A stretch of 64,000 bases of DNA from Halorhabdus sp. CBA1104 (GTDB lineage Archaea > Halobacteriota > Halobacteria > Halobacteriales > Haloarculaceae), in assembly GCF_009690625.1 (NCBI RefSeq), contig NZ_CP033878.1, positions 620,001 through 684,000 on the forward strand. The letters are read 5' to 3'. Shown here piece by piece: positions 6,141 to 43,568 of this stretch; the first letter of the stretch is position 1, and every line of letters starts with the position of its first letter. The translations under genes and the position numbers were made by a program. The notes beneath the pieces are model-generated. The model was not told the origin of the DNA. It made no database searches and saw only the letters and a list, made by a program, of their open reading frames with translations.

Positions 6141-6395
6141 ATGGGGTATGAGGCTGTATGTCATACCATGCTACATCACGGCGACTTCGAGACGATTCGA
6201 GCCGTGATCCGCGAGGCCGATCGCGACGGTCCCCTCACCGCCCGGGAGATACTCGACTTGCTCGAAGACCACGGCGAATCCTTCGACAGTGCCCATCAGG
6301 TGGCGACTGTTCTGGGCCGACACGCCGAGACGGGCGAGATCGAAGTCATTCGGGGCCAGCCGTACCGTTATCGCTTCGACGAGCGGGGTCGGTGA
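6141..6395 (+). CDS. small predicted winged-helix protein
   Basis: An 84-residue protein; an internal ATG at 6168 (MLHHGDFETIRAVIREAD) is an equally good start. The layout is helix (DFETIRAVIREAD), helix-turn-helix (LTAREILDLLEDHGESFDS then AHQVATVLGRHAETG) and a short wing (EIEVIRGQPYRYRF). That is the winged-helix plan common in small archaeal DNA-binding proteins. No partner domain is present, and neither target nor ligand can be inferred. It precedes the Agl23-like gene by 60 bases on the same strand. Confidence 0.6.
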   Translation: MGYEAVCHTMLHHGDFETIRAVIREADRDGPLTAREILDLLEDHGESFDSAHQVATVLGRHAETGEIEVIRGQPYRYRFDERGR

Positions 6396-35534: not shown

Positions 35535-35984
35535 ATGAGCCACCACGAAGACTCCGCCGTCAGCGAGAGTGTCGAGATGTATCTCAAGGAGATATACATC
35601 CTCTCGCGGGACGGCGATCCCGCCAGGACGGGCGCGATCGCCGAGCGGCTGGCTGTCTCCCCGCCCAGCGTCACGCAGATGCTGTCTCGACTTCAAGAGG
35701 ACGGACTTCTCGACTACGAGAAGCGACGCGGAGCCATCTTGACCGACGAAGGCGAGCGCCAAGCGGCGGATTTACTGGCCAAACACTGTCTCATCGAGCG
35801 GTTCCTCGTCGACGGGCTGGACGTCACTGAGGGGTTTCACGAGGAAGCCTGTGAACTCGAACACGCACTGAGTGACGACGTTGCTGCCCGGCTGACCAGA
35901 TACGTCGACCGCTGTGAGGAATGCCCGGACTGTTATGACGCCGACGCAAAGCACTGTCGGCATCTGGATGCCAGTGCAGACTAA
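35535..35984 (+). CDS. DtxR-family metal-dependent transcriptional regulator
   Basis: A 149-residue regulator. Residues 8-70 form the DtxR wHTH (SVEMYLKEIYILSRDGDPAR; LAVSPPSVTQMLSRLQEDGL). The dimerisation/metal domain has LLAKHCLIERFLVDGLDVTE and EEACELEHALSDDVAARLTR, where the Cys/Glu/His ligands of the primary metal site lie (C-x2-E-x-E-H). No SH3-like domain follows. Instead the end is cysteine-rich: YVDRCEECPDCYDADAKHC. Iron or manganese responsive repressors of this type are common in haloarchaea. The target genes are not evident here. Confidence 0.88.
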   Translation: MSHHEDSAVSESVEMYLKEIYILSRDGDPARTGAIAERLAVSPPSVTQMLSRLQEDGLLDYEKRRGAILTDEGERQAADLLAKHCLIERFLVDGLDVTEGFHEEACELEHALSDDVAARLTRYVDRCEECPDCYDADAKHCRHLDASAD

Positions 35985-40215: not shown

Positions 40216-40416
40216 ATGGCCAGCACAGATCACGCGACCGATTCCATGATGGAGTACTGCCCGAGTTGTGGGACCGACCAGCCACACGCGGTGTCACTGA
40301 CGCTCGTGACCGAGAGCGACGACCGGACGAACGCCGCCTTCTCACGTGAGCCGTATCGCGTGAGGCAGTGTCGGGTCTGTGGCCGAGAAACACGACGGCG
40401 CATGAACGACGCCTGA
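40216..40416 (+). CDS. small zinc-ribbon protein (DUF7835-like)
   Basis: A 66-residue protein with two CxxC knuckles, MMEYCPSCGTDQPHAVSLTL and YRVRQCRVCGRETRRRMND, separated by about 35 residues of probable beta hairpin. This is the plan of haloarchaeal putative zinc beta-ribbon proteins (a family I recall as DUF7835). It may bind nucleic acid or protein; no context clue. Confidence 0.65.
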   Translation: MASTDHATDSMMEYCPSCGTDQPHAVSLTLVTESDDRTNAAFSREPYRVRQCRVCGRETRRRMNDA

Positions 40417-40596: not shown

Positions 40597-41183
40597 CTAC
40601 TGCGTCTCGTCGCTCAGATCGTCGCTCGGAAAGACTCGATACGTCCGGCCCTGCCGCTCCCGAAACAATAGTCCACGCTCTTCGAGTGCGCTCACTGTTT
40701 GACTGACTTTACTCTTCGAGAAATCAGACCGGTCGCGAAGTTCGATCTGTGTGATTCCGGGCGAGTCAACGACGGGTTCGAGCACGCGGCGTTCGTCGTC
40801 CGGCAACAGATCGAGCACGCGCGCTTGTGGATCTGATTCTGGCGTGGGTGTCCCCCACCTGTCGACTCGTCGTCCTGCGCGGGAGCCGTCTCGGACGATG
40901 CTGCATCTGGCATTGGTGTTTGAGGGGGATCGGCCTCGTCCGTGAGGTCTGTTCGAACCAGCAGATAGAGGCCACCGATGATGCCGACGACCAGTAGCGT
41001 CCCGAGGACGTACCACAACGGATCGGGGCCGTGCATCGTCTCCATTGTCCCGTCCATCATCGAGCCCATCGACTCCTCGAGGCTGCGACGCTGTTGATAG
41101 GCCTGCCAGCTGACTGCACCGCCAACGATACTGACGAATCCAACGAGCACGACGACCACGGTATCTGCACGCCGCCGATTCAT
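40597..41183 (-). CDS. membrane-tethered winged-helix regulator, one-base frameshift
   Basis: The minus strand encodes MNRRRADTVVVVLVGFVSIV (TM1), a short outer loop rich in Met (SLEESMGSMMDGTMETMHG), TM2 (WYVLGTLLVVGIIGGLYLLV) and a linker. The frame then breaks at a C5 tract (40852-40856). In the next frame a winged helix follows: VLDLLPDDERRVLEPVVDSP, ITQIELRDRSDFSKSKVSQT and LEERGLLFRERQGRTYRVF. One extra C restores a 195-residue protein; the total span is one base short of a multiple of three. The two membrane helices with a Met-rich loop suggest a metal-sensing one-component regulator. Divergent from the Met/His-rich protein run. Confidence 0.7.
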
Positions 41184-41415
41184 GTGGTTCCCTCCAGTTG
41201 CCCGGGATTGCGGCTCATGGTTGTTGTTGAGCGCCAGGCAGGGTGTCGATTACGGTTTGTCTCCCCGAAGGACTCGAATTCGGCAGCGATGAACACTCTC
41301 TCTTTTGAGAAACGATTAGCGAGCGGTATACACAGTCTCGAACGATCTCAGTCGCGGATTCACACCCAGAATGATAACCCCTGGGCTGTCCTCAGGGTTC
41401 TTGAGGAGAAACACA

Positions 41416-41730
41416 TTGACCAACGTCAAACTCAGCCGCTGGCTGCTCGTGGCGATCGCGATCGTCGGACTCGCAGTTGCGCTCCCGATGGTCAGCGCAC
41501 ACGGGAACGAAACGACCGCTGGCGACGCAGCGCCACCCAACGAAACTGCAGATGAGTGGGGTCCCTGGATGGATGACCACATGACCCAGCACATGGGGGC
41601 GGGCGCAGCCGAATGGATGGAGTCCCAAATGGACGGGACCGTCGACGAGATGGCCGAGGCCGACCATGATCGCGGGCCGGTCGAGCACGACCACTCCGCT
41701 GTCGGCATGGGCGGGCAAAGTCACTGCTGA
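41416..41730 (+). CDS. secreted Met/His-rich small protein
   Basis: A 104-residue protein starting at TTG 41416 behind a good Shine-Dalgarno sequence (GAGGAG, 41403-41408); an in-frame ATG at 41371 is an alternative. The signal peptide is KLSRWLLVAIAIVGLAVALP then VSAHG. The mature part has a dense run of metal-liking residues, WMDDHMTQHMGAGAAEWMES and HDRGPVEHDHSAVGMGGQSH, ending in Cys. Methionine/histidine clusters of this kind bind copper(I) or silver in CopC/CusF/PcoE-type proteins. No homologue was recognised by family. Confidence 0.65.
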   Translation: MTNVKLSRWLLVAIAIVGLAVALPMVSAHGNETTAGDAAPPNETADEWGPWMDDHMTQHMGAGAAEWMESQMDGTVDEMAEADHDRGPVEHDHSAVGMGGQSHC

Positions 41731-41803
41731 CGGCCCTGCCCTTTCGATGACAACGCCACACGCCCGTTCCGGGCTCGAAAACACATACGCACACAATCTA
41801 CCA

Positions 41804-41947
41804 ATGTCACAGACCGGTATCACAACGATCGGTGTACAGTTCGACAACGGTGTCGCTGCAGTCACGATGGGACTCCAGAACGAACGGTTCGAGCACGCCA
41901 TCGCGACGATTGCAGACGAGTTTGGAGCGACCTCGGAGGGTGAGTGA
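41804..41947 (+). CDS. 47-residue protein of unknown function
   Basis: A short frame MSQTGITTIGVQFDNGVAAV then TMGLQNERFEHAIATIADEF and an acidic end. The pattern is a beta hairpin followed by a helix. Its stop overlaps the GTG alternative start of the next gene, so the two are likely co-transcribed. Sequence composition is coding-like. No family recognised. Confidence 0.45.
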   Translation: MSQTGITTIGVQFDNGVAAVTMGLQNERFEHAIATIADEFGATSEGE

Positions 41948-41949
41948 CG

Positions 41950-42303
41950 ATGCCTTCGTCGGATCGACTCGACGCCACGACCGTCGCCCTCTTGATTCTG
42001 GGCGCACTCGTCGTCGTCCCCACGCTCACGATGGGGGGCGGATTCGGTGGGATGGCGGGTCACGGCGGAATGATGGACGGGTACGCCTCGACCGGCGGGT
42101 GGTGGGCGCTCGTTGGGATGTTTGTTCGGCTTGCCGTCCTCCTCGCGGTGCTCGGTGGTGGGTATGTCTTCTTCCACCGGATGACGGAATCACAGGCCTC
42201 TCGGAATCCTCCGATGGAGGAGTTGCGTATGGCGTATGCCCGCGGGGAGATCTCCGAGGACGCATTCGAGGAGCGTCGGACCAAGCTAGAACGTTCGGAG
42301 TGA
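41950..42303 (+). CDS. SHOCT-domain membrane protein
   Basis: A 117-residue protein. TM1 (VALLILGALVVVPTLTMG), an outer loop rich in Gly, Met and His (GGFGGMAGHGGMMDGYAST), TM2 (ALVGMFVRLAVLLAVLGGGY), and a C-terminal SHOCT motif (PPMEELRMAYARGEISEDAF). SHOCT stretches are short helical modules found in many bacterial and archaeal membrane proteins. GTG 41944 is an alternative start. The loop resembles the Met-rich segments of its neighbours. Confidence 0.7.
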   Translation: MPSSDRLDATTVALLILGALVVVPTLTMGGGFGGMAGHGGMMDGYASTGGWWALVGMFVRLAVLLAVLGGGYVFFHRMTESQASRNPPMEELRMAYARGEISEDAFEERRTKLERSE

Positions 42304-42424
42304 TCACCGCTTTCACCAACGCTGATGGTTCCCTACCGACTCCTTTCGAATCCGAAATCTGGCACCCTCTCAGCCGTTGGTTGGTAATGGAAGTGTACAA
42401 AAACCACAAGACCGTATTAGACAT

Positions 42425-42664
42425 ATGACCGAAGACACTCTTTCCACCCAGGAGACGTGCGGACCGTGCACAACGCACCGGGAGAGACACGAAGGCATCG
42501 AGGACGAATATCCCGCCGTCGAATTCCGGCCGGGCGACAGCCGGATGGATCTTGTGGCGCTTATCGCGAACGCAGCCCAGCAATCGATAGAACCCTTGAA
42601 TCAACTTCGTAGCATCGTCCGCGGAGCACAGAACCGCATTCACTCGACTCATGAGCTACAGTAG
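42425..42664 (+). CDS. 79-residue CxxC protein of unknown function
   Basis: Sequence MTEDTLSTQETCGPCTTHRE has a single C-x2-C, followed by a polar stretch and a helix LVALIANAAQQSIEPLNQLR. The end overlaps the cupredoxin-SHOCT gene by 14 bases. A thioredoxin-like or copper-binding role would fit the pair of cysteines but cannot be supported. No family recognised. Confidence 0.5.
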   Translation: MTEDTLSTQETCGPCTTHRERHEGIEDEYPAVEFRPGDSRMDLVALIANAAQQSIEPLNQLRSIVRGAQNRIHSTHELQ

Positions 42665-43403
42665 ACGCCAGTTTCTAGGAGCGCTGGGGGCCGGGACGGT
42701 CGGGGCTGGGGGATTCACCCAGTCAGTTGCTGCCCAGGAGACGCCCGTCGTCACGATGGGGAACAACTACTTCGATCCGATCGGCCTCCACGTCGAACCG
42801 GGGACGACTGTCCGCTTCGAACTGGCGGCCGGTGCCCATTCCGCTACGGCCTACGAAAGCCGGATCCCATCCGAAGCCAACACGTTCGATAGCGGAGTCA
42901 TCTCCGCCGGCGGGTTCGAGTACACGTTCGAACAACCGGGCACGTACGACTACTACTGCATCCCGCACACGTCGGCCGGGATGGTCGGTCGTATCGTCGT
43001 TGCCAGCCCTGGCGGCCCGGCCGAATCGAGTCCGATTCCGGACGGTGACGTGCCCGAAAGCAACGATATCGTCGAACAAGGTACCATCGTGCATGGTTCA
43101 ACCACTGGTAGTGACCGAGGCAGCGATGGCGGCATGATGGGGCCTGGGATGGGGTCTGGCCCTGGCATGATGAACGGTCGAAACGGTGGATGGGGTAGCG
43201 GAGTGCCATTCATCGGCGGGGCACTCGGGATGGCGGGACTGGTTGGCGGTGCCCTCTATTGGGCACTGGGTCGAGGCGACAGGCCGCCCGAGCGTGACGA
43301 TTCCGCGATGGAAGCCCTCCAACGCCGGTACGCACGAGGTGAAATCGACGACGCGGAGTTCCAGCGACGCCGTGAACAACTACTGACGAACCACGAGGAT
43401 TGA
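42651..43403 (+). CDS. Tat-exported blue-copper protein with membrane anchor and SHOCT tail
   Basis: A 250-residue protein. Tat signal SYSRRQFLGALGAGTVGAGG. Residues 32-115 form a plastocyanin/halocyanin-type domain with type 1 copper ligands: His in AAGAHSATAYES, then Cys, His and Met in YDYYCIPHTSAGMVG. A Gly/Met-rich linker (GGMMGPGMGSGPGMMNG) is followed by a TM helix (VPFIGGALGMAGLVGGALYW) and a SHOCT motif (AMEALQRRYARGEIDDAEF). Copper domains fused to SHOCT are unusual. The outer domain probably carries electrons or holds copper; the inner SHOCT segment could contact partners. Confidence 0.8.
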   Translation: MSYSRRQFLGALGAGTVGAGGFTQSVAAQETPVVTMGNNYFDPIGLHVEPGTTVRFELAAGAHSATAYESRIPSEANTFDSGVISAGGFEYTFEQPGTYDYYCIPHTSAGMVGRIVVASPGGPAESSPIPDGDVPESNDIVEQGTIVHGSTTGSDRGSDGGMMGPGMGSGPGMMNGRNGGWGSGVPFIGGALGMAGLVGGALYWALGRGDRPPERDDSAMEALQRRYARGEIDDAEFQRRREQLLTNHED

Positions 43404-43494
43404 AACCCGCCGTCCCCTTTTCCGTGTAGCTGTTTTTTACGCTCGTTTATGTGTGAGGAAGCAACCAGCCACAGAAGTATAGACTTCGATACAG

Positions 43495-43568
43495 AGCCAG
43501 GGGTGGGATTTGAACCCACGAATTCTCGATTACAAGTCGAGTGCTTGCACCGCCCAAGCTCCCCTGGC
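43495..43568 (-). tRNA. tRNA-Thr (anticodon TGT)
   Basis: The minus strand folds into a complete cloverleaf. The acceptor GCCAGGG pairs with CCCTGGC, the discriminator is T, the D arm is GCTT/AAGC, and the anticodon stem CTCGA/TCGAG encloses loop CTTGTAA (anticodon TGT, codon ACA). The T stem GTGGG/CCCAC is perfect. There is no intron and no encoded CCA. Confidence 0.95.

Follow-up and report, generated by a model that had tools for sequence, protein, structure and literature searches.

A candidate extracytoplasmic Cu(I)/Ag(I)-type response locus of haloarchaea, probably impaired in Halorhabdus sp. CBA1104

The question raised by this locus of Halorhabdus sp. CBA1104 is whether a membrane-bound regulator with a Met-rich outer loop may read copper(I) or silver(I) outside the cell and signal directly to DNA, as the initial annotation proposed. 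The locus lies in a window of 64,000 nucleotides (positions 620,001–684,000 of NZ_CP033878.1; unprefixed coordinates are window positions) within a genome that consists of a single contig of 2,628,395 bases, and it is bounded by a DUF7835 gene (40216–40416) and a tRNA-Thr gene (43494–43568). The annotated divergent arrangement is confirmed in the sequence, with a regulator on the minus strand facing away from an operon on the plus strand that is headed by an exported Met/His protein, here termed SP_MH. With moderate confidence, we read the locus as a haloarchaeal gene set for an extracytoplasmic Cu(I)/Ag(I)-type response, decayed in this organism.

The regulator had been described as a two-helix membrane protein with a Met-rich outer loop and a winged helix; all of these parts are present, but they are split between two frames (40863–41183 versus 40606–40872). 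The N-terminal half (40863–41183, minus strand) matches positions 1–109 of profile A1 in one frame and contains two predicted membrane helices that flank a Met/His outer loop and are followed by a linker. The C-terminal half (40597–40872, minus strand; stop codon at 40597–40599) matches profile positions 107–195 in a different frame and carries a DUF7343/MarR_2 winged helix, with 39.9 bits for DUF7343 (cut-off 27.6) and 34.8 bits for MarR_2 (cut-off 27). Alignment with intact relatives places the break at a run of five Gs (40852–40856, minus strand; Cs on the plus strand); the minus-strand frame from 41183 passes the membrane segments and the Met-rich loop, runs into unrelated sequence and then stops. 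A profile search of the Halorhabdus sp. CBA1104 genome did not find a second full copy. In all 80 named relatives the regulator is in a single frame, as it is at each of the 18 loci of relatives that were read, and membrane helix and DNA-binding domain share one polypeptide in 80/80, which is not so for the window copy as sequenced. The membrane-bound one-component reading thus fits the intact relatives, but not the frameshifted window regulator. DUF7343/MarR_2 is present in 30/30 of the relatives' regulators scanned, whose domain scans did not find AsnC/Lrp or TRASH domains, and PDB matches to the winged helix are weak and fall on MarR proteins (E about 0.008). In the AlphaFold2 model of an intact relative, the hairpin of helices with its loop (42–54) reaches a pLDDT of about 70–85, and the winged helix remains below 60, too weak for a useful fold search. 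Over 30 sequences M43, M47 and H51 of the outer loop never vary, and M39 and M42 hardly do. The dN/dS of the window winged helix against intact relatives is 0.04–0.08, and such strong remaining constraint implies that the break is either recent or an assembly error. At L144 (about 6.1–6.7 kb; G091:C19:98098–98678) the regulator match ends after profile position 111 and abuts SP_MH; as its sequence reads, G091 is another lineage that carries a truncated regulator.

For the genes on the right, comparison with intact relatives gives the full operon order SP_MH, SHOCT-a, DUF302, SHOCT-b, thioredoxin and cupredoxin-SHOCT. Four or five small genes had been counted on this side of the locus; three are intact, but a 47-aa ORF and the ORF with CxxC are deletion remnants. 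The annotated signal-peptide protein with Met/His clusters is SP_MH itself (41416–41730, plus strand; 104 aa, TTG start). The Gly/Met/His-loop SHOCT protein is likewise borne out as the membrane protein SHOCT-b (41950–42303, plus strand; 117 aa), which scores 29.3 bits for PF09851 (cut-off 27) and is 59–69% identical to its relatives. The blue-copper protein with a Met-rich linker and a SHOCT tail corresponds to a Tat-exported cupredoxin with a membrane helix (42651–43403, plus strand; 250 aa), identified by PF00127 (Copper-bind, 43.4 bits, cut-off 21.2) and PF09851 (37.4 bits) and falling below the halocyanin cut-off (TIGR03102, 46.0 versus 93.8 bits). It is up to 79% identical to its relatives and evolves under a constraint like theirs (dN/dS 0.15–0.17), and the dN/dS of SP_MH and SHOCT-b points to slightly relaxed constraint. 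The CxxC protein exists as an ORF (42425–42664, plus strand), but as a thioredoxin gene that has lost its middle by internal deletion (79 aa versus 102 aa in relatives). The 47-aa ORF (41804–41947, plus strand) has no Pfam match and is the remnant of the DUF302 gene after an internal in-frame deletion of about 276 nt, which shortened the product from 139 to 47 residues and removed the entire domain (residues 35–98 in an intact relative). SHOCT-a is missing from the operon, and a search of the genome found no separate copy. With SHOCT-a missing and the DUF302 and thioredoxin genes cut, the locus reads as a decaying copy, and the frameshifted regulator together with the two remnants makes it probable that the window copy is impaired.

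Whether the gene set is a coherent unit was examined in 116 genomes, comprising the organism's own and those of relatives, and at 80 regulator loci from named haloarchaea (Haloarcula, Halorubrum, Haloferax, Natronomonas, Halobellus, Natrinema and others). Of the 116 genomes, 40 have the regulator and 31 have SP_MH, all 31 among the 40, so that SP_MH occurs in none of the 76 genomes without the regulator (Fisher p = 2e-20, a value inflated by kinship among the genomes). At 71 of the 80 regulator loci SP_MH lies within 8 kb, and in 70 of these 71 the two genes are on the same strand, which makes the divergent arrangement of the window unusual. A minimal triad of regulator, SP_MH and SHOCT-a stands alone in other Halorhabdus chromosomes and is seen again in another genus of the same family with regulators that are 45–49% identical; adjacency of regulator and SP_MH also extends to distant families (regulators 45–55%), and in further families the regulator's neighbour is an exported protein that is either SP_MH-like or otherwise rich in Met or His. 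Haloferax species also carry intact triads, for example at L109, L115 and L120. In one genome (G068), SP_MH and regulator are both present on separate contigs. The initial annotation had named a lack of conserved synteny as grounds for giving it up; the set survives, in that regulator and SP_MH co-occur, adjoin and often stand amid metal-efflux genes.

A DNA target is suggested by the SP_MH promoter, where 23 de-duplicated loci share a conserved and nearly gap-free block of roughly 130 bases upstream of the gene. This block holds a conserved repeated element inside the interval (41184–41415) in which a test of regulator binding had been proposed. From its far end, where the palindrome CGAATTCG (41275–41282) is near-invariant over the 23 loci, it continues through ACG-centred repeats (41291–41349, plus strand) at −81, −62, −42 and −32 relative to ATAAC. 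The resulting spacing of 19, 20 and 10 bp puts the repeats on nearly one helix face, and we take them to be the candidate operator of the regulator. All four repeats are present at 17/23 loci, and the window keeps two, AACGATT at 41311 and GAACGATC at 41341, with the other two reading ACA. A search pattern of 39 bases and three repeats matches 29 of the 116 genomes, all 29 with the regulator (in the own genome at G000:C1:661311–661349, with one mismatch), and 34 of the 36 whole-genome matches immediately precede SP_MH, in most cases by exactly 66 bp; the reversed pattern gives no match in the 116 genomes. Across the 80 loci, a strict motif scan similarly places 70 of 75 hits upstream of SP_MH, and a loose whole-genome search with two mismatches is swamped by background. 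The repeat was not found in the regulator's own promoter. Downstream, the conserved leader block TTCACACCCA-N4-GATAAC (41359–41378, plus strand) is nearly invariant across families and is followed by a conserved Shine-Dalgarno-like GAGGAG (41403–41408, plus strand). A structured riboswitch in this leader is not supported, since RNAalifold returns no pairs over the 23 sequences, and a leader peptide was set aside on inspection of start and stop codons, which are not conserved. A full copy of the SP_MH promoter occurs at L136 of genome G004 (about 6201–6239, minus strand) with no recognisable SP_MH, some 370 bp before a 96-aa gene, DUF302 and two SHOCT genes, and may represent either a second target or a deletion remnant.

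The product under this promoter resembles a metal sponge. Its predicted signal peptide ends in Ser-Ala before an invariant His, the Ala-His pair being invariant at the predicted cleavage site, and mature SP_MH (from His29 in the window) should therefore begin with His. The C-terminal residue is Cys, the sole one of the protein, in 43 of 44 distinct proteins. SP_MH is rich in Met (9.9% versus 2.4%) and His (7.1% versus 2.0%), and averages 2.2 MxxH motifs per protein versus 0.53 in shuffles; the window protein keeps two, an excess that alone is not significant (p = 0.11). Its AlphaFold2 model shows three short helices that bear Met/His residues (pLDDT about 70–80), and Pfam, NCBIfam and PDB profile searches did not match it to any metal-binding family. 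Silver binding by SilE runs through MX2H/HX2M motifs (PMC5008109, PMC10080550), and with the motif definition of PMC10080550 SP_MH shows the traits of SilE/PcoE, being exported, Met/His-rich and furnished with MX2H or HX2M motifs. The likeness to these small sponges is one of composition and motif; SP_MH differs from them in its N-terminal His and invariant C-terminal Cys, and in its proposed control by a one-component regulator in place of a two-component system such as CusRS.

Metal genes surround the regulator at most loci. At least one recognised metal gene or cupredoxin is near 71 of the 80 loci, and none is near the other nine, some of which are stand-alone triads. A COG0701-type permease, ArsP_1 with a YHS tail, is near 58/80 loci, P1B ATPases of mixed subtypes are near 48/80 (with Cu-type motifs at 25/80), and other neighbours include HMA proteins, YHS, DUF411 and multicopper oxidase. 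The neighbouring permease of relatives (464 aa; ArsP_1 193.7 bits, C-terminal YHS domain) comes close to the SO_0444 family of Cu/Zn efflux permeases, but its score of 74.3 bits for NF033936 lies below the 300-bit cut-off, and membership was rejected. In the Halorhabdus sp. CBA1104 genome, a search run without a positive control gave no match to the permease, and a CopA-like ATPase elsewhere is 71% identical to the neighbouring ATPase of a relative. From ligands and neighbours we infer copper or silver as the metal. The candidate operator was also sought at permease, P1B and HMA genes and discounted there, as their upstream motifs differ. HMA65 genes (e.g. at L077, L079, L086 and L107) share a TTTGGATTCNAA-like upstream motif, and some permease genes are preceded by similar TTNGAATNCA-like sequences; a separate copper regulator probably binds at these motifs. 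Two further metal-related genes near the locus are a DtxR/MntR-like regulator, recognised by eye (35535–35984, plus strand), and a cation diffusion facilitator (PF01545; 38435–39442, minus strand).

Some copies of the locus appear to have moved between genomes. At ten loci the regulator is embedded in 11 to 19 kb that share 96–99.9% identity with Haloarcula japonica (99% or more at no fewer than seven of the loci), and the hosts come from at least seven genera (Haloarcula, Halorhabdus amylolytica, Halarchaeum, Halohasta, Halorientalis, Halorussus and Halosegnis). Such near-identity across genera implies recent horizontal transfer of a metal island (L044 1583–20597 and matching parts of L042, L043 and L045–L051), the ends of which lie beyond the stretches compared. 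The window copy, at about 57–79% protein identity, is outside this island; it adjoins the tRNA-Thr(TGT) gene (minus strand) and an acetyltransferase gene. In a relative from the same family (L030) both neighbours recur, with the tRNA gene at the same position. Triad or operon copies near tRNA genes are found at L035, L036 and L038 (tRNA-Pro) and at the window and L030 (tRNA-Thr), and these tRNA genes are possible integration sites.

Taken from the intact relatives, the proposed mechanism would start with a regulator in the membrane, the Met/His loop facing out and the MarR-like winged helix facing the cytoplasm. Metal on the outer loop would change how tightly the winged helix holds the in-phase ACG-centred repeats of the SP_MH promoter, most likely as relief of repression. 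The induced operon would supply SP_MH, which may soak up metal at the cell surface, along with SHOCT membrane proteins whose loops are rich in Met; its longer versions would add a DUF302 protein, a thioredoxin and a blue-copper protein. Efflux would be left to P1B ATPases, neighbouring or distant, and to the COG0701-type permease, under other promoters. Kinship among the 116 genomes, recent transfer of some loci, the 9/80 loci without a metal gene, the mixed ATPase subtypes and, in the window copy, the broken regulator, the two mutated repeats and the non-significant MxxH excess count against this reading, as does the chance that the element belongs to another regulator. The broader proposition, to which we give slightly less than an even chance, is that of a widespread system in which a kinase-free membrane MarR-like regulator reads surface Cu(I)/Ag(I) directly and controls an exported Met-rich sponge with N-terminal His and C-terminal Cys via a helically phased four-repeat operator.

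Three alternatives bear on different parts of this proposal. The window regulator might still be functional, its frameshift being a homopolymer assembly error or bypassed by slippage on the G run; this is a possibility that we take seriously without favouring it, as the break falls at five Gs, both halves are strongly constrained (winged helix dN/dS 0.04–0.08) and the relatives are intact in 80/80, but the same operon has two clear deletions, a missing gene and two mutated repeats, which together imply that decay is under way, and truncated or partial regulators occur in other genomes (G091). The conserved element might instead be the target of a different regulator, with the DUF7343 protein travelling with SP_MH and controlling something else. 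Neighbouring genes make element and regulator co-occur in any case, some copies are carried on shared islands, and the regulator's own promoter is without the repeat; the association nevertheless holds in stand-alone chromosomal triads and in G068, where the two genes are on different contigs, the element is in no regulator-less genome among the 116, and winged helix and element are both highly conserved, so that we regard this explanation as unlikely.

The pair may also be a real one-component pair that answers to a signal other than copper or silver, such as Zn, Hg, Cd, an oxidant or envelope stress via Met oxidation. Met-rich segments can serve as oxidant sensors, nine loci are without recognised metal genes, and at 26 loci the P1B ATPase has an unusual CPG motif. 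In this 639-aa ATPase of the metal island, found at L056 (2574–4493, minus strand) and 25 other loci, CPG stands before DKTGT in place of the usual CPC, CPH or SPC. The Cu-type P1B ATPases at 25 loci, HMA, DUF411, multicopper oxidase and cupredoxin neighbours, the conservation of His along with Met and the MxxH spacing as in SilE argue for the copper/silver reading, and make a different signal fairly unlikely.

The initial annotation knew of no described system of this make-up. None was found in limited full-text searches, and DUF7343 is without mention in the literature searched, but the kinds of component are known. The intact regulators resemble transmembrane transcription regulators (TTRs; Demey et al. 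2023, PMC10269533) such as archaeal ArnR in joining a DNA-binding domain and membrane helices in one protein without a kinase; they differ in that the winged helix is C-terminal to the two helices and in the Met/His outer loop with its tie to an exported Met/His protein, and copper and metals go unmentioned in the text of the TTR survey. Haloarchaeal Lrp-type copper regulation (copA-lrp-copZ, PMC10694973; VNG1179C of Halobacterium) shares the haloarchaeal copper/silver response, but relies on cytoplasmic regulators of the Lrp family, whereas the present membrane-bound regulator is of the DUF7343/MarR-like kind, and the ATPase genes lack its candidate operator. Silver RNA-seq in Haloferax reports induction of copA, petE, a SHOCT protein and a COG0701 permease (PMC10694973), with identifiers not matched to the SP_MH locus. 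The system seems to join two known kinds of component, a transmembrane one-component regulator and an exported protein like SilE, in a combination that appears to be undescribed.

Copper and silver regulation as we found it described in haloarchaea runs through Lrp-type regulators beside copA/copZ. If the present reading is true, a direct surface sensor with a candidate operator would form a second, extracytoplasmic branch of this regulation and would offer a simple model for a transcription factor that acts from the membrane. The named intact copies and a candidate operator at a fixed distance of about 66 bp before SP_MH make the proposal directly testable in a genetic model such as Haloferax, and the near-identical islands suggest recent transfer of metal resistance between haloarchaeal families.
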